The notes beneath the pieces were generated by a model. That model was not told the DNA's origin, did no database searches, and saw nothing but the letters and a program-made list of their open reading frames with translations. This document shows positions 7,098-18,635 of a stretch of 26,605 bases of DNA, piece after piece. The stretch is from a virus, in the IMG/VR virus record IMGVR_UViG_3300043425_000517, positions 1 to 26,605 of that record, one strand, 5' to 3'. Positions within the stretch are counted from its first letter, which is position 1. Every line of letters begins with the position of its first letter. Made by a program: the position numbers and the translations under genes.

Positions 7098-7778
7098 ATG
7101 ACCCATTACATCACCCAAGACCTTTTGCCCCTTGCTACGGCCGTTGAGAGCCTAAAGCCGGCCCAAAAAAACCCACGCGTAGGTGACATCGAAGCTATCC
7201 GTAAAAGCTACGAACGCTTTGGCCAGCGCAAGCCGATCATCGCCAACCGCGCCACGCGTGAGGTCATAGCCGGCAATCACCAACTAGCCGCCGCGAAGCA
7301 ACTTGGCTGGGCACAGATCGCGGTCGTGTGGGTAGATGATGACGAAGCTACCGCCACCGCTTATTCCGTTGCCGATAACCGCATTGGTCAGCTAGGCGAG
7401 TGGAATGTTGAGGCGCTAGTAGATGCGCTAGCGGACATTGACCCAATAGATCTAGGCGCGACTGGTTTCAGTCAAAGCGACTATGACGATTTTGTTGCTT
7501 TGCTAGATGAGCAGGTTGGATCTATCGCCGCAACCGCCGCACCAGAAACCGATACCGAGCGAAGCATAGACGCAAACTTACAAGTGAAGAAAGATAGCAG
7601 TTACGCAGAGTTCTTAGAGCGTTACGCCAACCGCGCTGTTCGTGCGATAATTCTCTACTACCCAAACGATGAGTATGGCAAAATGATAGAGGATCTAAAA
7701 ACCCTCGGCAAGAAATACGACACCGAGGACAACGCGGAAACGATCGCCGCGCTAGTGAGGGAGAAACTGAGTGAGTAA
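7098..7778 (+). CDS. ParB-like nuclease-domain protein
   Basis: This 226-residue protein has the ParB/sulfiredoxin N-terminal fold: LKPAQKNPRVGDIEAIRKSY (residues 19-38), then FGQRKPIIANR and EVIAGNHQLAAAKQLGW (the nucleotide-binding GxH/R loop), then VWVDDDEATATAYSVADNR. The C-terminal third has no recognised domain. It is not fused to a methylase and is not paired with ParA, so plasmid-style partitioning is unlikely. ParB-superfamily proteins often accompany phage TET/JBP dioxygenases and terminases, where a role in targeting or processing modified DNA has been suggested but not proved. Its stop overlaps the dioxygenase start by eight bases. AGGAGA lies before ATG 7098. Confidence 0.85.
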   Translation: MTHYITQDLLPLATAVESLKPAQKNPRVGDIEAIRKSYERFGQRKPIIANRATREVIAGNHQLAAAKQLGWAQIAVVWVDDDEATATAYSVADNRIGQLGEWNVEALVDALADIDPIDLGATGFSQSDYDDFVALLDEQVGSIAATAAPETDTERSIDANLQVKKDSSYAEFLERYANRAVRAIILYYPNDEYGKMIEDLKTLGKKYDTEDNAETIAALVREKLSE

Positions 7779-8658
7779 GTTACCAGAGTTTTTTATCAAG
7801 AGGGTCTTGTCTAAGGAAGAAGCCGATAAGGTCGTTGGCGTGACTGTTGAGGATAGCGAAGTCAATGTCAATGAAGCAGGGATCTATCGCGACGCCGATA
7901 CCGGTGAAGCAATCTTGGTTTATGCGCCTTACCCTGCGCCAGTCACAGAACTACGCAAGGCCGTTCTAGAAACTGAATACTCGACCACGCTACGCGCTAG
8001 CGGAACGCGAAACAATAGCCGCGTCTTTGGATTTACTAATCGCTCGGCCGTCTTACAACGCGAAGCCTGCACTCCGACTTCGCTATCTTGGGAAAACCCA
8101 GAAGCGCAAATGACCCTAAATAACACCGCCGAAATTTTAGGGAACTATCTACGCGAACAACTGCCAGAAGTTTTTGAACACGACTACCGCGAAGTTTCTC
8201 AGGTGCTACCAGAGTGGCGTATGACCGAGGACGCGCTATGGACTTCTGGTGTTATCAACCAGAGTTCAGCTTTGCCTTATCACCGCGACGGATCTAACTT
8301 TGACACCTGGTCAGCTATGCCGGTAATTCGTAGAGGTATGGACGGCGGAAACTTACATATGCCGGAATATGACATTACGATCAACTGCCGCGATGGTTAT
8401 GCGCTTTGGTTCAATGGTTATGCGTATGTTCATGGAGTTACGCCGCTAAAGCCTAGAACTAAAGATGGCTACCGCTATTCGATAGTGTTCTACGCTAAGC
8501 GAGGTATGAAAGATTGCCACACTTACGCCGTAGAAGTTGGCGAGGCTCGCAAGCGGCGCGCCGAGCGCGAAGCTGGTATGGTCGAAGATGACCTAACAGC
8601 AATCAAAGAAAAGATCAAGACAGGAAGATCTAACGGCGATACGCGCATTGTAAACTGA
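7771..8658 (+). CDS. TET/JBP-like 2-oxoglutarate/Fe(II) dioxygenase
   Basis: This 295-residue protein shows the metal triad of the double-stranded beta-helix dioxygenases: H171-R-D173 (in LPYHRDGSNF), distal H221 (in YVHGV), and R235 (in YRYSIVFY) to bind 2-oxoglutarate. The segment RVFGFTNRSAVLQRE (85-99) and the layout around the triad resemble phage TET/JBP enzymes, which oxidise the methyl group of 5-methylcytosine or thymine in DNA. GTG 7771 is preceded by AGGGAG and overlaps the ParB-like gene. A glycosyltransferase follows directly, and a C5 methyltransferase occurs in the same genome, so oxidation of 5-methylcytosine is the favoured reaction. A dioxygenase acting on another substrate cannot be excluded from sequence alone. 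Confidence 0.75.
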   Translation: MSKLPEFFIKRVLSKEEADKVVGVTVEDSEVNVNEAGIYRDADTGEAILVYAPYPAPVTELRKAVLETEYSTTLRASGTRNNSRVFGFTNRSAVLQREACTPTSLSWENPEAQMTLNNTAEILGNYLREQLPEVFEHDYREVSQVLPEWRMTEDALWTSGVINQSSALPYHRDGSNFDTWSAMPVIRRGMDGGNLHMPEYDITINCRDGYALWFNGYAYVHGVTPLKPRTKDGYRYSIVFYAKRGMKDCHTYAVEVGEARKRRAEREAGMVEDDLTAIKEKIKTGRSNGDTRIVN

Positions 8659-8678: not shown

Positions 8679-9470
8679 ATGGATTATCAAATACCCATAC
8701 CTAGCTATAACCGCATTGAAACTTTGCGGAAAGCAACGCTAGCCACGCTCGAAAGACACGATACGGATCCGCGGCGCGTGACTATTTTCGTGGCGAACGA
8801 TGAGCAATACAAAGAGTATCGCGAAGCTATTGACCGCAAATACGAGATAGTGGTGGCCGAGCTAGGACTACTAAATGCCAAGCGCTTCTATCACAATTAC
8901 TATGACTCTGGCACAAAACTATTCAATGTTCTTGATGATGTTTATTCACTAAAGCAAAAAGACGGCGAAAAGATGGCCGATTACTCCGGAACTATTGACG
9001 AGCTAGTCAGCTTAGGCTTCCGCGCCAGCGAGAAAGTCGGCGCGAAGATGTGGGGAATCAACCCAGTTACCAACGGCTTCTTTATGAAAGATCAGATCAC
9101 TATTGGATTGCGTCTAATTTATGGAACAATTTATGGTGATTACGCTGGTAATCCATCTGTTCTAGGGAAAAGAGTTATGGAAAGTCCGAGCGGCGAAGAT
9201 TGGGAAAACTCAATCAGCAGTTTTATTGCCAACGGATCTCTAGTTCGTATCGAATGGATCGCGCCGGTTAGCAAGCTATTTGCTAAAGGCGGTATGTCGG
9301 ACGAACTAAAGCTACGCGGAACTGACCGCAAAACTGAACACGAACTACACCTAAGAGCTATTGCCGCCGCGTATCCGGATCTATGTTCGATCTACTACAA
9401 GGCCGGCGATGTTATCAACCTAAGACTAAAAAACATTACCCACGCTCGCATACCAAAAGGAACAATCTAA
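8679..9470 (+). CDS. GT-A-fold glycosyltransferase, probably DNA-modifying
   Basis: This 263-residue protein opens with a typical nucleotide-sugar binding start: IPIPSYNRIETLRKATLATL (residues 5-24), then VTIFVANDEQYKEYR. The acidic metal-binding site is LFNVLDDVYSL (81-91; D86, D87), the DxD equivalent of GT-A enzymes. SGEDWENS (171-178) resembles the acceptor-side acidic motif. It is compact, has no membrane segment, and follows the TET/JBP-like gene by 20 bases. Phage TET/JBP-associated glycosyltransferases of this kind are thought to glycosylate hydroxymethylated bases. The Shine-Dalgarno is weak (CGAAAGAA) before ATG 8679. Confidence 0.75.
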   Translation: MDYQIPIPSYNRIETLRKATLATLERHDTDPRRVTIFVANDEQYKEYREAIDRKYEIVVAELGLLNAKRFYHNYYDSGTKLFNVLDDVYSLKQKDGEKMADYSGTIDELVSLGFRASEKVGAKMWGINPVTNGFFMKDQITIGLRLIYGTIYGDYAGNPSVLGKRVMESPSGEDWENSISSFIANGSLVRIEWIAPVSKLFAKGGMSDELKLRGTDRKTEHELHLRAIAAAYPDLCSIYYKAGDVINLRLKNITHARIPKGTI

Positions 9471-10478
9471 ATGAAAGTAGTAATTACAGGAGTAGCCGGC
9501 TTTCTTGGCTCACACTTAGCCGATAAGTTTTTGGCCGAGGGTCACGAAGTAGTCGGTATTGACAACCTAATCGGTGGATACGAAAGTAACATTCCGAGCG
9601 GCGTAGAGTTCTATAACCTAGATCTAGCAACCGATTTAGATGCGCTTACGCCAGCTTTTGTCGGATCTGAAATGGTTATTCACGCCGCTTGCACAGCTTA
9701 CGAGGGTCTTAGCGTCTTTAGTCCGAGCCTAGTTGTCGCTAACACTACGCAAGCTACGGTAAATACACTTACCGCGGCGATCCGTAACGGCGCTAAGAAG
9801 TTCGTCTATCTAAGTTCTATGGCGCGATACGGCGATCACGGCGGCAAGCTATTCGATGAAAGCGATGAAGCGCGGCCACAAGATCCTTACGGCATAGCAA
9901 AGTTAGCTAGCGAAAAGCTAGTCCGTAATCTTTGCGAGGTTCATAACTTGGATTGGATTATTTTGGTGCCGCATAACATCATTGGGCCACGCCAGAAGTT
10001 CGATGATCCATTCCGTAATGTTGCTTCGATTATGGTGAATAGAATGCTGTCCGGTGAGCAACCGATTATCTATGGTGACGGAACTCAGCAAAGATGTTTT
10101 AGTTTTATTGAGGATGTTGTTGAGCCACTATGGGTTGCGTGTAACAGTCCAGAAGCCGTAGGCGAAGTTATCAACATTGGCCCAGACGAAGAACACATAA
10201 CTATCAACAAACTAGCGACAACGCTGGCAGAAATTATCGGCTTTGACTTAGATCCGATCTACAAAACTGGCCGGCCGCAAGAAGTAAAGATTGCGTTATG
10301 TTCTTCTAATAAAGCTAGGCGATTGCTGAACTATAAAACCAGCGTAGATCTAAAGACCGGCCTAACTAGATTGGTGGATTGGATCGAAGCGCAAGGATCG
10401 CGTAAGTTCCACTATCACTTGCCAATCGAAATTATCAACGAGAAAACTCCCGAAACCTGGACTAAGAAACTTTTCTAG
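9471..10478 (+). CDS. NAD-dependent nucleotide-sugar epimerase/dehydratase
   Basis: This 335-residue extended short-chain dehydrogenase has TGVAGFLGSH at residues 6-15 for NAD binding and D31 for the ribose hydroxyls. It carries LSSMARYGD with the catalytic Ser region (115-117) and the YxxxK pair Y140/K144 in DPYGIAKLASEKL. The C-terminal half (IIYGDGTQQRCFSFIEDVV, EVINIGPDE) matches UDP-glucose 4-epimerase-like enzymes that bind the sugar. The exact sugar cannot be predicted. It directly abuts the glycosyltransferase (stop 9470, start 9471), so it probably prepares the sugar nucleotide for it. AAAGGA serves ATG 9471. Confidence 0.88.
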   Translation: MKVVITGVAGFLGSHLADKFLAEGHEVVGIDNLIGGYESNIPSGVEFYNLDLATDLDALTPAFVGSEMVIHAACTAYEGLSVFSPSLVVANTTQATVNTLTAAIRNGAKKFVYLSSMARYGDHGGKLFDESDEARPQDPYGIAKLASEKLVRNLCEVHNLDWIILVPHNIIGPRQKFDDPFRNVASIMVNRMLSGEQPIIYGDGTQQRCFSFIEDVVEPLWVACNSPEAVGEVINIGPDEEHITINKLATTLAEIIGFDLDPIYKTGRPQEVKIALCSSNKARRLLNYKTSVDLKTGLTRLVDWIEAQGSRKFHYHLPIEIINEKTPETWTKKLF

Positions 10479-12590: not shown

Positions 12591-13942
12591 TGCTTAGGGA
12601 TTTATTCGAGAAAAGAGCTATCAGCTATCAAACTCTGTTTGCGGCTGGCGATGACATAGATTTTGCTAGCGCCTCGGCAACCAAGATCAACCCCGAAACA
12701 GCTTTCCGCATCAACGCAATCTTTTCTGCCGTATCCCTAATTAGCGATACCATTTCTACTTTGCCGCTAGACGCTTATGTAAGAGCCAACGGCAACCGAT
12801 TCCCGATGAGGCCTCGACCAGATTGGGTGTATAAGCCGGACATTGACACTACTCGCGCTAGCTTCTATGGCCAAGCGATCGTATCGTTACTAATTGACGG
12901 TAATGCTTTCATTCGTGTATTTACTCGCCGCGGCCAGGTTGTAAATCTAACTGTTCTAAACCCTAACAAGGTTGAGATCAAGCGCGAAGCCTACGGCCAA
13001 GTTCGATTTATGGTTGAGGGTGAAAACAAACCGCTAACTCCGGAAGAATGTATCCACATACCAGACGTGGTTCGTCCAGGATACTTGCGCGGACTTAGCC
13101 GCGTAGAGCAACTAAAAGAAAACTTTGGTTTGGCGATGGCGCTAGAAATGTACGCCGCTAAGTTTTTTGGTCAAGGTGCGACAACTCAGGGAATTATAGA
13201 GTTCCCAGATGAGCTAACTGCTGAACAAGCTCGCGAACTAGCGCAGTCTTTCGATTCACGCCACCGCGGTTGGGGTCGCGCTCACAAGACCGGTGTCCTA
13301 ACTAGCGGCGCTAAGTATAAAGAAACCAGCGTCAATAATGATCAGGCTCAGTTCATAGATTCTCGCCGTATGGCAGTTGAAGATGTTGCTCGTGCTTTCA
13401 ATGTTCCGCCGCACCTACTCGGATTGCCCGGAACTAACAGCTACGCCAGCGTAGAGCAGAACAACCTAGCGTGGGTAACTCACGGACTTCGCCCAATTAT
13501 TCAGAAGATCGAAGATGCGCTCTCGCCACTACTAGCACTATCCCCTAACGGCACGGACGCTTTCTTGCGCTTCAACATTGACGGCCTATTACGAGCAGAC
13601 ATAAATAGCCGTATGAGCGCTTACAGCACCGGACTACAAAGCGGCTTCCTAACTATCAACGATGTTCGCCGGCTAGAGGATCTAAGGATCATTCCGGATC
13701 CGTCTGCCGACACAGTTCGTGTTCCGCTAGCTAATGTAAATGTTGAGGCAAGCACAATCAATCAACAAGACAAGCGCGTAAGTATGGCCGCGAAGCTAGT
13801 TCAGGTTGGTTTCAAGCCGGAAGATGTTCTAGCCGCGCTAGACATACCACCAATCGGACACACCGGTATCCCAAGCGTTCAGCTACAAAACTTAGCGAAT
13901 TTAGATCCGGCTGATCCAATCGGATTATACGAGGAGAACTAA
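12590..13942 (+). CDS. Portal protein, HK97 type
   Basis: The 450-residue protein shows the typical HK97-family portal features: an N-terminal AFRINAIFSAVSLISDTISTL helix, SLLIDGNAFI, and CIHIPDVVRPGYLRGLSRVE. VEDVARAFNVPPHLLGLPGT and SYASVEQNNLAWVTHGLRP follow. It forms the dodecameric channel at the capsid vertex through which DNA is pumped. It begins in a TAATG overlap with the small membrane protein and ends in a TAATG overlap with the next gene. The C-terminal extension (about residues 390-450) is polar and low in complexity. Confidence 0.93.
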   Translation: MLRDLFEKRAISYQTLFAAGDDIDFASASATKINPETAFRINAIFSAVSLISDTISTLPLDAYVRANGNRFPMRPRPDWVYKPDIDTTRASFYGQAIVSLLIDGNAFIRVFTRRGQVVNLTVLNPNKVEIKREAYGQVRFMVEGENKPLTPEECIHIPDVVRPGYLRGLSRVEQLKENFGLAMALEMYAAKFFGQGATTQGIIEFPDELTAEQARELAQSFDSRHRGWGRAHKTGVLTSGAKYKETSVNNDQAQFIDSRRMAVEDVARAFNVPPHLLGLPGTNSYASVEQNNLAWVTHGLRPIIQKIEDALSPLLALSPNGTDAFLRFNIDGLLRADINSRMSAYSTGLQSGFLTINDVRRLEDLRIIPDPSADTVRVPLANVNVEASTINQQDKRVSMAAKLVQVGFKPEDVLAALDIPPIGHTGIPSVQLQNLANLDPADPIGLYEEN

Positions 13943-14655
13943 TGGCTATTACTACACAGCTAGTCACAGTTGGCACAGCTAGCGCAACGCTTTCAGCACC
14001 AACGGTAGATGCGCAACTCTTATGGATAGAAAACTTAGAACCGTCTAATAATTTAGCCGATTATTCTCGCGAGGGTCACACCTACGTCTATACCCAATAC
14101 TTTCAGATAGCAAACGGCGGAACAGCTTTATTCTCATTTCAAACTGGCGCGACAGGAGCGCAGTTTGAGTTTTGGCAGTTTGACGCGCAATCCTCTAGCG
14201 TATTGGGCGAGTTGATCGAAAGTCCAACTGTAACTACAACTGGATCGAACTTGCCTGGACGCAACTTGAACAGAAACGTATCCGATAATCACTCCGCGGT
14301 TCTTAGAGCGGCAACAGCCGTAACTGGCGGAACAGTTATTTTTACTGAATTTGTTCCGGCTTCTAATCAAGACGGCGGCGGTGTGCAAAGCAATCAAGTT
14401 ATCACGCTCAAACCAAACACTCAATACGGATTTAGATTTACCGACAAAGGCGGAACTGGCACTTTCTTGCATATTCAAGTCGCTTGGGCAGAACAATACA
14501 ACGGCTACAACGACGTATGGATCAATGGACCTGCCTATAACGCAATCAGACTACGCGGCGGCGAGAAAATACAGCTCGAATTAGGTCAAGGCGAGGGTCT
14601 AACGGCGGTAGCCTTACGCAATGATGTTCAAGTTGCAGTTATGAGGCAAGACTGA
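13942..14655 (+). CDS. Probable virion structural protein of unknown type
   Basis: This 237-residue protein is beta-rich with many Gly/Thr/Gln/Asn residues and few charges (GTASATLSAPTVDAQLLWIE, YFQIANGGTALFSF, GGTGTFLHIQVAW, GEKIQLELGQGEGLTAVALR). That composition fits a jelly-roll or Ig-like surface protein. It occupies the place between portal and protease where no gene is required in HK97-like phages, so a decoration or head-associated protein is plausible. It starts within TAATG after the portal with GAGGAGA upstream, and ends in overlap with the protease fusion. I do not recognise a named family. Confidence 0.6.
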   Translation: MAITTQLVTVGTASATLSAPTVDAQLLWIENLEPSNNLADYSREGHTYVYTQYFQIANGGTALFSFQTGATGAQFEFWQFDAQSSSVLGELIESPTVTTTGSNLPGRNLNRNVSDNHSAVLRAATAVTGGTVIFTEFVPASNQDGGGVQSNQVITLKPNTQYGFRFTDKGGTGTFLHIQVAWAEQYNGYNDVWINGPAYNAIRLRGGEKIQLELGQGEGLTAVALRNDVQVAVMRQD

Positions 14656-16235
14656 TGCCGTACTACATAACCGATAGTCACCCTGATTGCTCGGCTTGGG
14701 CAACTATCAAAGAAGATGGGGAACTGCTAGCTTGTCACGCTACAAAGCAAGGAGCTATTGACCAGATGATCGCTGTATCTATTAGTGAGGGATTAGAGCC
14801 TGGTGGCGAAAGAGCTAAGCCAGGAGATCTAAGAGTTGGCGATTATGTTTCTTGGAACTCGTCAGGTGGCCGCGCTAGAGGTGAAATACAACGGATTGTT
14901 ACCAATGGCACGATAGATGTACCAAACAGTTCAGTATCCGTTACTGGAACTCCTGACGATCCGGCCGCACTTATTCAGGTTTACAGACCTGTTGAGGGTG
15001 GCGGTTGGGAAGATACCGATGTGTTTGTGGCTCATAAGTTTTCCACGCTAACAAGAATTGACGAATTACCAGAACCAATGGACGAACCGGACGACGAAGA
15101 TGACGACGATTTTGAGGAAACTCGCCAAGTCGATCTAACGCCGCCGGCGTATATGAGAGCGGCCGCTAGACAAGGCTTGCGCTATTACGAAGAAGGACTA
15201 GGTGGAGATGGATTGGTTGCGCGCACAATTAGCGAGGCTAGGGCTATGGCAAGCGGTTCTGTTACTGCTGATAAGTGGGTTCGCCTTAGGGCTTGGATTG
15301 CTCGCCATTTGGTTGATCTGGACAGTCCCGATGCCGATCCTAATTCAGACAATTATCCTAGCGCTGGTGTCGTAGCACATTTGCTCTGGGGAAGTGGGCC
15401 AAGTAAGAGAGCCGCGCAACGCGCACTTGATTACGCAGACGGAGTTGTTACTAGACTAGAAGAACAAAATCGCGCACTAATTAGCGCGAAAGGAGAGAGT
15501 ATGTCGAAAATTGAGATCCGCACCACGCCTGGATCTTTCGAGATCCGCGAGGACGGAAGCGGTATGACCTTTGAGGGATACGCCGCTGTATTCAATTCGG
15601 ATTCTGAGCCGCTACCCTTTATTGAGCGTATTGCCCCTGGTGCTTTTACGAGATCGCTAAAGCGTGGCCGTAATGACATAAAGCTACTTTGGAACCACGA
15701 AACCGGTGAGGTTCTAGGATCTACTCGTGCTGGAACGCTAACCTTGGAAGAAGATAACTATGGGCTAAGGGTGCGAGCAATCTTGCCTGATACTTCGACT
15801 GGTCGCGACGCGGCAGTTCTCCTAAAGCGCGGCGACATTGACTCAATGTCTTTCGGCTTCTCGGTGCCAGATGGCGGAGATGAGTGGAGTTCGGACGGCC
15901 GCACGCGTACCCTAAAGTCGGTAAGGCTTCACGAAGTAAGTATTGTGGCATTCCCAGCGTATTCCGCTACTGCCGGCACTACTTCTGTTCGTGGCCTAGA
16001 TAAGGTTGCCGCTCGCGCCGCCGTAGATAGTGACCAGTTGGCAGATGCTGTCTTGAAACTAGAAAGCGGTTCTGAACTAACTACCGATGATGCGCAACTA
16101 CTAAGAAAAGTAATTGACGAACTAGCACCGCTTCAAACCGCTAAGGCAGAAGAACAAGCCGCAAACGGAGATGTGGAAATGCTAGAACTAATGAAAGCAA
16201 AGCTAAAACTGATTGGCGGAAACAATGGCAACTAA
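14655..16235 (+). CDS. Fusion protein: N-terminal extension plus HK97-type prohead protease
   Basis: The 526-residue product has four parts. Residues 1-53 (MPYYITDSHPDCSAWATIKE onward) form a small conserved actinophage domain. Residues 55-135 resemble a TUDOR-like DUF2945 domain (VGDYVSWNSSGGRARGEI, VFVAHKFSTL). An acidic linker (EPDDEDDDDFEE) precedes a helical domain (about 160-275, AARQGLRYYEEGLGGDGLVA and later SAGVVAHLLWGSGPSKRA). From residue 283 on is the prohead protease. Its catalytic His is in LLWNHETGEVLGS and its Ser in IDSMSFGFSV, with HEVSIVAFPAYS after. The protease processes capsid and scaffold during maturation. A strong internal start at 15501 suggests a separate short form. 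The ATG overlaps the previous stop. Confidence 0.85.
   Translation: MPYYITDSHPDCSAWATIKEDGELLACHATKQGAIDQMIAVSISEGLEPGGERAKPGDLRVGDYVSWNSSGGRARGEIQRIVTNGTIDVPNSSVSVTGTPDDPAALIQVYRPVEGGGWEDTDVFVAHKFSTLTRIDELPEPMDEPDDEDDDDFEETRQVDLTPPAYMRAAARQGLRYYEEGLGGDGLVARTISEARAMASGSVTADKWVRLRAWIARHLVDLDSPDADPNSDNYPSAGVVAHLLWGSGPSKRAAQRALDYADGVVTRLEEQNRALISAKGESMSKIEIRTTPGSFEIREDGSGMTFEGYAAVFNSDSEPLPFIERIAPGAFTRSLKRGRNDIKLLWNHETGEVLGSTRAGTLTLEEDNYGLRVRAILPDTSTGRDAAVLLKRGDIDSMSFGFSVPDGGDEWSSDGRTRTLKSVRLHEVSIVAFPAYSATAGTTSVRGLDKVAARAAVDSDQLADAVLKLESGSELTTDDAQLLRKVIDELAPLQTAKAEEQAANGDVEMLELMKAKLKLIGGNNGN
15501..16235 (+). CDS. Nested prohead protease from an internal in-frame start
   Basis: ATG 15501 lies in frame within the long fusion, and AAAGGAGA (15489-15496) stands at ideal spacing upstream. 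That is better than the site of the long form, whose start merely overlaps the previous stop. The 244-residue product (MSKIEIRTTPGSFEIREDGS onward) is exactly a standalone HK97-type protease domain, ending with a helical scaffold-like tail. The long and short forms could therefore coexist, as nested protease and scaffold genes do in other phages. Whether both are made is inference from the ribosome binding site. Confidence 0.6.
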   Translation: MSKIEIRTTPGSFEIREDGSGMTFEGYAAVFNSDSEPLPFIERIAPGAFTRSLKRGRNDIKLLWNHETGEVLGSTRAGTLTLEEDNYGLRVRAILPDTSTGRDAAVLLKRGDIDSMSFGFSVPDGGDEWSSDGRTRTLKSVRLHEVSIVAFPAYSATAGTTSVRGLDKVAARAAVDSDQLADAVLKLESGSELTTDDAQLLRKVIDELAPLQTAKAEEQAANGDVEMLELMKAKLKLIGGNNGN

Positions 16236-16431
16236 AGAACAAATCAAAGCAACTATTCTCGCCGTAGCTGGCAACCCTGAAACTGGTTTCGTGGTTGAGC
16301 TAGCGGATGAGTGGGCAACTGCGATCGCAAAGCTAGACGAAAAGTCCTCAGATGAGGGCAAGGCCACTTCGACCAACGAGCCGCGATCAGCTAATGAAAC
16401 GCGAGTAACCAAGGCTAGCGAAACCCGCTAA
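16225..16431 (+). CDS. Small hypothetical protein following the protease
   Basis: The 68-residue product (MATKEQIKATILAVAGNPET onward) has a helical N-terminal half, then a Ser/Thr/Glu-rich disordered tail ending VTKASETR. Similar small proteins occur just before the capsid gene in actinophages; a role in head assembly is possible but unproved. I chose ATG 16225 over TTG 16213; GGCGGAAACA lies upstream. It overlaps the protease stop by 11 bases and is the last gene before a terminator. Confidence 0.65.
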   Translation: MATKEQIKATILAVAGNPETGFVVELADEWATAIAKLDEKSSDEGKATSTNEPRSANETRVTKASETR

Positions 16432-16447
16432 AAGAAAACAGCTCGCG

Positions 16448-16485
16448 ACCCGACCGGATCTTATTCCTTTCTGCCGGTCGGGTTT
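16448..16485 (+). terminator. Intrinsic terminator after the protease block
   Basis: ACCCGACCGG (16448-16457) pairs with CCGGTCGGGT (16474-16483) in a ten-base stem with a 16-base loop, followed by TTAG rather than a full T-run. It separates the terminase-protease operon from the cargo genes. Confidence 0.75.
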
Positions 16486-16551
16486 AGCTTTGCCGGCCTC
16501 TAAATACGAGGGATCCGTAAAAATAACGATTTGATAACTTATGCCAAAAAG

Positions 16552-16587
16552 TAGTGAAAACTAGATAAAAGCGCTATAATAGGTGTA
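16552..16587 (+). promoter_or_regulatory. Promoter for the two-gene cargo island
   Basis: A perfect TATAAT -10 box lies at 16575-16580, within AAAGCGCTATAAT, a motif shared with two other late-region sites. The best -35 at 17-base spacing (TAGTGA, 16552-16557) matches the consensus at only three positions. Transcription would start near 16587, leaving a short leader that includes the AGAAAGG ribosome binding site of the gene at 16605. Confidence 0.7.
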
Positions 16588-16604
16588 AGGAAGAAAGGCA
16601 AAAA

Positions 16605-16895
16605 ATGAAGAAAGTAAAAATCTCCGCCACGATAGCAAACGAGATTTACCTACGAGAACTATGGTCACGCGACATAGAAGAAGCTGAGGGTATGGGTATT
16701 TACCGGAAAATAAGCGAGGCGAAATCTACGCGTAAAGACGGCGCGATAATTATCGAAGCAACAGAAGCAGAAATCCAAGAACTCTACGAGGAAGCTGATA
16801 GTTGGTCAGGCAATTTCGATGAGTATATGATGGGCCGAGGCGAATGGATGGCCTGGAAATCACTAAAGAAACAATGCCGAGCGCTACTTAGCTAG
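16605..16895 (+). CDS. Hypothetical acidic cargo protein 1
   Basis: This 96-residue, charged, mostly helical protein begins MKKVKISATIANEIYLREL and later has AIIIEATEAEIQELYEEADS and SGNFDEYMMGRGEWMAWKSL. I recognise no family. AAGGAAGAAAGG precedes ATG 16605. It has its own promoter and lies behind a terminator, between protease and capsid genes, which suggests a moron-type accessory gene. A defence-related or host-takeover role is a guess from this placement and size. Confidence 0.7.
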   Translation: MKKVKISATIANEIYLRELWSRDIEEAEGMGIYRKISEAKSTRKDGAIIIEATEAEIQELYEEADSWSGNFDEYMMGRGEWMAWKSLKKQCRALLS

Positions 16896-16917
16896 GCCAA
16901 AAGAAAGGACAAAAACA

Positions 16918-17214
16918 ATGAACGGAAAAGTAGTAGAGCTACACGAAGTATTAGAAAATGCCCCGGAATGGGCAAAGCCGCTGGCCGATCTAGTTAGCTG
17001 GTCACAAAATTACAACTATCAAAGCGGAACTCCGTATTGGGCATTCCTAGACCTAATCGGATACAGCGAAGAATACATTGGCTATAACATAAACGCCGAC
17101 CACTTCATCCTAGATTACGCGAGCGCTGATTCTTTCGCGGCGGCGCTAAGGATCTGGGCAGTTCGGCCTTACGATGTTTACGACTTCATCGAGAAAGTCC
17201 AAAATGCGGACTAA
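16918..17214 (+). CDS. Hypothetical acidic cargo protein 2 (antirestriction-like composition)
   Basis: This 98-residue acidic and aromatic-rich protein includes LADLVSWSQNYNYQSGTPYW, FLDLIGYSEEYIGY and ADHFILDYASADSFAAALRI. The high Asp/Glu and Tyr/Trp content is reminiscent of ArdA-like DNA-mimic proteins (phrases such as GYSEEYIGY fit loosely), but similarity is too weak for a firm name. GAAAGGACA precedes ATG 16918. It is co-transcribed with the gene at 16605 and followed by a terminator. Confidence 0.7.
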   Translation: MNGKVVELHEVLENAPEWAKPLADLVSWSQNYNYQSGTPYWAFLDLIGYSEEYIGYNINADHFILDYASADSFAAALRIWAVRPYDVYDFIEKVQNAD

Positions 17215-17221
17215 AGATCTA

Positions 17222-17304
17222 GGCGGTCTTTCTTCCCCCAACTAAAACCGCCAGCCCGAAGCGAGAGCCACCGGAATTGTCTCCCCGGTGGCTTTCGTGC
17301 TTTT
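17222..17304 (+). terminator. Double hairpin terminator after the cargo island
   Basis: GGCGGT (17222-17227) can pair with ACCGCC (17247-17252). A stronger second stem pairs AGCCACCGG (17266-17274) with CCGGTGGCT (17285-17293), followed by TTCGTGCTTTT. The second hairpin is the more likely terminator, closing the unit that starts at 16587. Confidence 0.75.
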
Positions 17305-17316
17305 ACTATCAACTAC

Positions 17317-17327
17317 TCTGATACACT
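17317..17327 (+). promoter_or_regulatory. Extended -10 promoter for the major capsid gene
   Basis: TCTGATACACT carries an extended -10 (TG, one base, TACACT at 17322-17327), four of six matches to TATAAT. The octamer TCTGATAC recurs at 21958-21965 before the tail chaperone gene. A start near 17334 would give an 80-base leader with a possible CCGA/TCGG hairpin (from 17338) and a GC-rich CGCT/AGCG stem before AAGGAG and ATG 17415. No -35 is convincing. Confidence 0.5.
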
Positions 17328-17414
17328 AAAAGACAGCCGAAAGTGAGTTAGCTCTGTCGGTGTTCGCTTGCGTCAGCGCGGCGGCAAATCACAAATAATC
17401 ACTAAGGAGAATGT

Positions 17415-18572
17415 ATGTCTTTTGTAAAGGCACAGCAGGAACTCCGCGCAAACCTGACTTCGCAGATCCGCGAAGTTATCGACCTCGCTGAGGGAGAGAA
17501 GCGCGGACTTCGTGCGGATGAAGTTGAGAAAATTCAACGCATCGAAGCTGACATTACTGCCGCTGATGAGGCGATCGCAGTAGCACAGCGTAACGAGGAG
17601 CGCTCACGCGCTCTAGCTGAGGCAAGCGCAACCGCTACCCCAGCACCACAGCAGGTTCGTTCCGACTCGGAGATCCTACGCGCAATCGCAACTGGCGAAA
17701 TGCGTAGCGCAACTTTCGAGAAGCGCACACTAGTACCAAGCGACAACACAGTACCAAAGTCCTTCTATGACCAAGTATTCGCTGTTGCTCGTCTAGTTGG
17801 TCCAATGCTAGACACCTCTGAGATCATCAACACGACCTCTGGAGAATCTCTAACAATCCCAACTTTGACTGCTTACTCAACCGCAACCATCAAGGGTGCT
17901 GGTTCAGCAATCGCAGAGTCCGAGCCAACTTTCAGCTCGATCACTCTCGGAGCATACAAGTACTCATTCCTAGTCCAGGTAGCAAACGAACTGATCGCAG
18001 ATGCCGGCTTCGACATCTCCGCTCTAATTGCTGAGCAAGCTGGTAACGGACTTGGCTACGCTGTAAACACCGGCCTAACTCTAGGAACTGGAACAGTTGA
18101 GCCAACCGGTCTTGTTACTGCCGCTGGTTCTGCTCTAGTTGGTGGCACTGGTGTTGCTGGTGCTTTCACCGCTGACAACCTGATTGACCTTGCTTACTCT
18201 CTAGACGGAGCCGCTCGCAGACTGCCAGGTGTTGGCTACATGCTGAACGGATCTTCACTAGGCAAGATGCGCAAGCTAAAAGACACCGCTGGTAACTACC
18301 TATACCAGGTCGGAGTTGGACAGCCAGATACTTTCGCTGGCTTCCGCGTAGTAGAAAACCCAGCAATGGCAGACACCGCGACAAACGCAAAGTCTGTTAT
18401 TTTCGGTCACCTACCAAGCTACAAGGTACGTATGGCTGGCGGCCTACAAATCGCTCAGTCCGCGGACTACGCTTTCAACGCTGACACCACTACCTTCCGC
18501 GTGCTAATGCGCGTTGATGGAAACCTGACCCACAGCGGTCACGTCAAGTTCTTCAAGGGTGCGGCTAGCTAA
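17415..18572 (+). CDS. Major capsid protein, HK97 fold
   Basis: This 385-residue protein has an N-terminal helical, charged segment (residues 1 to about 75, coiled-coil-like, the delta/scaffold domain). An Ala/Pro linker follows, then the coat domain beginning near SEILRAIATGEMRSATFEKR. PKSFYDQVFAVARLVGPML, SESEPTFSSITLGAYKYSFL-type strands and VANELIADAGFDISALIAEQ follow the HK97 family pattern. The delta domain is probably removed by the protease encoded upstream. AAGGAGA lies before ATG 17415. It forms its own transcription unit between two terminators, as expected for the most highly expressed gene. Confidence 0.92.
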   Translation: MSFVKAQQELRANLTSQIREVIDLAEGEKRGLRADEVEKIQRIEADITAADEAIAVAQRNEERSRALAEASATATPAPQQVRSDSEILRAIATGEMRSATFEKRTLVPSDNTVPKSFYDQVFAVARLVGPMLDTSEIINTTSGESLTIPTLTAYSTATIKGAGSAIAESEPTFSSITLGAYKYSFLVQVANELIADAGFDISALIAEQAGNGLGYAVNTGLTLGTGTVEPTGLVTAAGSALVGGTGVAGAFTADNLIDLAYSLDGAARRLPGVGYMLNGSSLGKMRKLKDTAGNYLYQVGVGQPDTFAGFRVVENPAMADTATNAKSVIFGHLPSYKVRMAGGLQIAQSADYAFNADTTTFRVLMRVDGNLTHSGHVKFFKGAAS

Positions 18573-18589: not shown

Positions 18590-18635
18590 CCCGGAGAGAG
18601 CTTGTGTGTGGGTAGCTCTCTCCGGGTTTCTTTTT
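18590..18635 (+). terminator. Strong intrinsic terminator after the capsid gene
   Basis: CCCGGAGAGAGCT (18590-18602) and AGCTCTCTCCGGG (18614-18626) form a perfect 13-base stem with an 11-base loop, followed by TTTCTTTTT. This is the clearest rho-independent terminator in the window. Confidence 0.93.

Follow-up and report, generated by a model that had tools for sequence, protein, structure and literature searches.

A probable moron-like accessory cassette and a conserved leader RNA beside the capsid gene in an actinophage lineage

Are small genes that lie between the protease and the major capsid genes of a phage parts of the head, or are they cargo carried at that place? This question is raised by a viral DNA of 26,605 bases (IMGVR_UViG_3300043425_000517, positions 1 to 26,605; hereafter the window), in which two small genes, F1 and F2, are inserted into the late gene block. 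The order of this block is terminase, portal, a variable gene, protease, P3, the island with F1 and F2, major capsid protein (MCP), glycosyltransferases, neck, tail and tape measure. Of the phages in the annotated collection, the closest is Pontimonas phage phiPsal1, with an MCP identity of 60.5%, and relatives of the MCP in the genome collection were found only on two short contigs of one uncultured Microbacteriaceae MAG. From these relatives, we infer that a Microbacteriaceae host is likely. The positions of the relevant features and the cargo of related phages are listed in Table 1.

The variable gene between portal and protease marks a second variable spot in the head block (13942-14655): it codes for 237 aa in the window, whereas the same spot holds an 86-aa gene in L005 (4736-4996) and a 92-aa gene in L116. 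The window also carries a likely DNA hypermodification set (380-1069, 7098-7778, 7771-8658, 8679-9470 and 9471-10478), consisting of a C5 methyltransferase (Pfam E 9e-8), a ParB-like protein assigned by eye, a TET/JBP oxygenase and a TET-associated glycosyltransferase, both below the Pfam cut-offs, and an epimerase.

Table 1 Features of the slot in the window and cargo at the same site in related phages.
Feature	Positions	Strand	Description or basis
P3, small ORF of 68 aa that follows the prohead protease and borders the slot on the left	16225-16431	+	translation; tblastn survey
Terminator-like hairpin after P3	16447-16484	+	fold z -3.7; alignment; hairpin scan
Candidate island promoter	16552-16580	+	TATAAT 16575-16580; weak -35 TAGTGA 16552-16557; spacer 17 nt
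Ribosome site AAGGAAGAAAGG	16587-16598	+	common to L005, serving a different first gene there
F1 (P0001), 96 aa, ATG start, predicted alpha/beta	16605-16895	+	ORF, conservation, dN/dS
F2 (P0002), 98 aa, ATG start, predicted all-helical, PHROG 33275	16918-17214	+	ORF, conservation, dN/dS
First hairpin after F2, no U tract	17222-17252	+	fold z -2.6; also in L008, where the stem sequence differs
Second hairpin, island terminator candidate, tail UUUCGUGCUUUU	17266-17293	+	fold z -4.0
Presumed -10 (TACACT) of the capsid-gene promoter	17322-17327	+	relatives have a similar TAAAAT/TAAACT in this position
Capsid-gene leader RNA, tandem hairpins 17336-17361 and 17364-17384, UYAR loops	17321-17392	+	covariation, conservation
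MCP, right neighbour of the slot	17415-18572	+	60.5% to annotated MCP, phiPsal1
L005 cargo			five or six small genes; extra small genes and F3 ahead of F1-F2
L007 cargo			F4-F3-F2
L008 cargo			F4-F1-F3-F2
L050 cargo			another gene, F3, F2
L009 cargo			F3 and another gene
L011 cargo			three unrelated genes
L256 cargo			three small genes
L237 cargo			GNAT-like protein
L035 cargo		-	pyrimidine-dimer glycosylase (Pfam E 1.3e-24) and phrog_3754 protein

Occupancy and anatomy of the slot

Contigs of related phages were found either via the capsid protein or via the DNA pattern of the capsid leader; the two surveys overlap in contigs and their counts are not to be added. The slot was empty, and the two neighbouring genes thus adjacent, in 60 of the 71 loci of the capsid-protein survey and, among the matches listed, in 95 of the 107 loci of the leader-pattern survey. 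Four loci with gaps of about 450 nt lacking a convincing gene (L217, L250, L210 and L263) were counted as occupied, and the loci taken as empty include L257 and L206 and, in addition, three that were measured from the protease or had a partial P3 match (L075, L052 and L073). P3 was recognisable by tblastn between protease and MCP in most relatives, and in the empty ones it is followed by an interval of 131-290 nt, containing the terminator hairpin, the presumed promoter and the leader RNA, and then by the MCP gene. The preliminary description of this locus had asked for such a comparison and had named universal conservation of the gene pair as a head component as the outcome that would speak against cargo; instead, most relatives have nothing at this site and others have different genes.

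The occupied slots differ in gene content, number and strand (Table 1), L004 and L005 being two near-identical contigs with the same island and hence not independent. In L115 and L116, an F2 homologue lies inverted at the same site. The five island copies of F2 form one clade in the F2 tree, and the L115 copy groups, with modest support, with copies of other phages. Mapped on the MCP tree, occupancy of the slot requires five changes, of which three or more are forced by well-supported branches, so that independent gains, losses or both are needed. Among the minus-strand cargo, the phrog_3754 protein of L035 (5168-5578) has similar proteins in L054 (3935-4345) and L013 (1321-1719), the three sharing the pattern NDGGRxAAGYKG...DCVVRA.

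The signals around the cargo were compared in the same relatives. The terminator at 16448 that had been noticed in the preliminary description was recovered as a hairpin of -21.9 kcal/mol that beats all 200 shuffles; it recurs, with its stem sequence changed, in relatives with and without cargo, a few of them having a weaker or different hairpin after P3. The perfect TATAAT noticed there also stood up, being kept in L005 ahead of a different first gene, with TATAGT at its place in L008, L009 and L050. As the best -35 element at 17 nt matches the consensus at only 3 of 6 positions, the candidate promoter is missed by a plain consensus scan. The double hairpin described at 17222-17304 was likewise confirmed by folding and by its recurrence with changed stems: both hairpins are kept in L008 with other stem sequences (z -7.7), and the stem of the second one, which alone is followed by a U-rich tail, is compensated in L007, L008, L009 and L050. 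A search of the flanks for direct repeats as traces of insertion gave short matches and a repeated ribosome-site motif and no convincing target duplication.

The terminator loops after P3, in the window (16447-16484) as in relatives, are long and rich in pyrimidines. Of 87 distinct loops, 57 contain CTTTC, against 11 on average and at most 21 after shuffling, although the loops come from related sequences and do not represent 57 separate events. The motif looks like the anti-Shine-Dalgarno end of 16S rRNA, and its complement is found in ribosome sites such as AGAAAGG.

From these comparisons, the stretch 16485-17304 is very probably a removable accessory cassette of the moron-like kind, placed at an insertion hotspot that has the P3 terminator on one side and the promoter and leader of the capsid gene on the other. 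It resembles the morons defined in lambdoid and Mu-like phages (PMC4378225) in being a small unit with its own promoter and terminator, as judged from sequence signals, between genes that are adjacent in relatives, and in being absent from most of these. It differs from them in showing no clear shift in base composition (GC content of F1 plus F2 45.9% versus 48.8% for the genome) and no sign of lysogeny; moreover, the slot is a single site that takes up several genes, of mosaic content and on either strand. The moron organisation put forward in the preliminary description can therefore be retained for cargo that is, by its sequence signals, insulated in a gap between otherwise adjacent genes, but not for a GC shift or a lysogenic context. 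A cassette of this kind is a known sort of element, here in a cargo slot next to a capsid gene.

That an insertion within the head genes is uncommon, as had been stated, was too strong: gpD of lambda and gene h of PaMx73 are both located between protease-scaffold and major head genes (PMC4378225), which is also the placement of F1 and F2. In the Mu-like phages of Pseudomonas, RGP G, with anti-CRISPRs, and RGP H, with gene h, similarly hold variable short ORFs at fixed sites, and RGP H also lies between protease and major head gene. Gene h, however, codes for a virion protein, the cargo of the window is not known to have anti-CRISPR activity, and no sequence relation between these regions and the cargo was seen.

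The cargo proteins F1 and F2

By their dN/dS values between the window and L005 (0.11 for F1 and 0.14 for F2), both genes are under purifying selection. The dS of F2 in this comparison is 1.33, i.e. near saturation, compared to 0.16-0.80 in the other genes compared, and since it exceeds these values it suggests that F2 alleles have been exchanged between relatives. The two proteins had been described as small, acidic and of unknown family. The acidity applies to F2, which, with a net charge of -10 in 98 aa, ranks first in acidity per residue among 37 window genes checked, whereas F1, with a net charge of -3, is only mildly acidic. The family assignment had to be revised for F2: the protein matches the PHROG 33275 profile (E 1.1e-5, residues 24-94), as do all 38 aligned F2 members (best E 6e-38).

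The F2 family has a conserved core, WSxN...P...FLD[LI]IGYS, and 61 viral loci were found. The AlphaFold2 model of F2 is all-helical (pLDDT 92.8) and matches the model of the protein M1T3K1 of Prochlorococcus phage P-SSP10 (TM 0.73) and one other viral model. Against the PDB, Foldseek and VIA gave no match above Z 3.5, and sequence and profile searches gave nothing convincing. A search of the 84,980-species genomes with one short exact peptide pattern yielded 20 matches, none of which was confirmed, and among the collections searched the family appears to be restricted to viruses. In P-SSP10, the F2 homologue belongs to a small-gene block that lies between the genes for maturase and RNA polymerase, before the latter, whereas F2 of the window lies beside the capsid gene. 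In T7-like phages, this small-gene block is the first region to be entered and transcribed. Around the F2 loci outside the lineage (L093-L145), the commonest named neighbour was a C5 DNA methyltransferase (10 of 106 proteins scanned, a raw count without a base rate).

Relatives of F1 were found only in L004/L005 (91%) and L008 (43%), and its alpha/beta model (pLDDT 84.8) was built from three sequences. Its viral matches, all with E above 0.007, included no convincing relative. The best PDB match by sequence and profile, DosT, was isolated and unconvincing (E 0.008), and the best fold match, BIRC6 (Z 6.3, 3.3 Å over 87 residues), was within the range that the tool calls common; both were rejected.

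Possible functions of the cassette

Since its TATAAT promoter would be read by the host RNA polymerase, the cargo could be produced independently of the head genes, and the terminators on both sides would insulate the neighbouring genes. Our best guess for F2 is an early host-directed protein, possibly acting in counter-defence, whose conserved helical surface might bind a host or defence protein, with F1 as co-cargo alongside. What suggests this early, host-directed role to us is the setting of the homologues elsewhere, namely small-gene regions, which in P-SSP10 directly precede the gene for RNA polymerase; this position outside the lineage is read from gene order and is clearest in P-SSP10, many of the other loci being unannotated fragments. 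Taken for itself, a host-directed function of F2 is a tentative assignment that we consider quite possible; the combination of an insulated, moron-like cassette with a host-directed F2 is the best explanation of the locus as a whole and a reasonably probable one.

A narrower version of this explanation, in which F2 or F1 blocks a specific defence other than restriction, in the manner of anti-CRISPR, anti-CBASS or anti-toxin proteins, is conceivable but rather unlikely. The variability of the small cargo and the unusual divergence of F2 between close relatives would fit it, as would the anti-CRISPRs in the accessory clusters of Pseudomonas Mu-like phages (PMC4378225), but neither F1 nor F2 had a match in PADLOC, which lists defence and not counter-defence proteins.

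The position shared with gpD and gene h (PMC4378225) raises the alternative that F1, F2 or both serve as optional decoration of the capsid, and their similar size and optional distribution would fit such proteins. We regard this as improbable: the cassette has signals for its own promoter and terminators, F2 runs opposite to the head genes in L115 and L116, its homologues lie away from head genes in other phages, and it is predicted to be all-helical, F1 being the less well tested of the two.

Likewise, F2 is very unlikely to be a DNA-mimic anti-restriction protein like ArdA or Ocr, as the preliminary description had proposed. It shares with these proteins its small size and acidity, the family having a median charge of -11.4 per 100 aa, and the methyltransferases among its neighbours elsewhere could be taken in the same sense. 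Its content of Asp and Glu is, however, an ordinary 15.3%, some family members are near neutral, and the conserved residues (W, S, N, F, L, D, I, G and Y) form a hydrophobic and aromatic core motif rather than an acidic pattern. The structure prediction and fold comparison that had been recommended returned no ArdA or Ocr chain among the Foldseek and VIA-align results, nor did sequence or profile searches, and the likely hypermodification genes of the window would offer another route to restriction resistance. Very unlikely, too, is a lysogenic moron in the full sense, which a repressed prophage would express to the benefit of its host; this reading would share the independent promoter and terminator but is opposed by the lack of any recognised integrase, repressor or other lysogeny gene within the 26.6-kb window, by the description of phiPsal1, the only named relative, as lytic and without integration (PMC6106888), and by the restriction of MCP relatives in the genome collection to the two MAG contigs.

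The leader RNA of the capsid gene

On its right, the slot is bordered by the promoter and leader of the capsid gene, and the more novel observation at this locus is not the cargo but the RNA that follows. The leader carries a single motif, GNG-UYAR-CNC, twice, each time on an outer stem of its own, and is conserved in island-bearing and empty relatives alike. In an alignment of 41 sequences, 96.1% of the pair cells are standard pairs and 9 of the 13 pairs have changed on both sides; not one of the five measures is attained by any shuffle out of 500, and pairing in slid controls amounts to 22-59%. Folding of the single sequence is not unusual (z -0.07), so that the support is limited to covariation and conservation. 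With the model, a single site was detected in each genome, at the MCP gene, and a scan of viral contigs gave at least 112 testable sites, all within 120 nt of the MCP start, with two more running off the contig. Comparison with Rfam gave no match except chance-level ones far below the family cut-offs, and no paper describing the element was found in an incomplete coverage of the literature. The capsid message thus begins with a conserved RNA structure that has apparently not been described before.

Directly behind the capsid gene, a perfect 13-bp inverted repeat followed by TTTCTTTTT (18590-18626, z -4.8) is a strong terminator candidate. Because it has this repeat and a presumed promoter of its own, the MCP gene may be a separate transcription unit. 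We think it somewhat more probable than not that the leader represents a new class of structured RNA controlling the output of the capsid gene, be it by binding a protein, by protecting the 5' end of the mRNA or by acting on RNA polymerase. The put RNA of phage HK022 acts on RNA polymerase, and the leader would resemble it in the last of these three options.

For a large group of actinobacterial phages that are mostly uncultured, these results define a cargo slot within the head genes, the contents of which can be listed by reading a single interval between two conserved landmarks. They also offer a convenient entry to PHROG 33275, a widespread family seen only in viruses, for which we found neither an assigned function nor a solved fold, and which here spans actinophage-like contigs and cyanophages. 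Finally, they bring to light an RNA element with covarying stems that precedes the capsid gene throughout this actinophage lineage.
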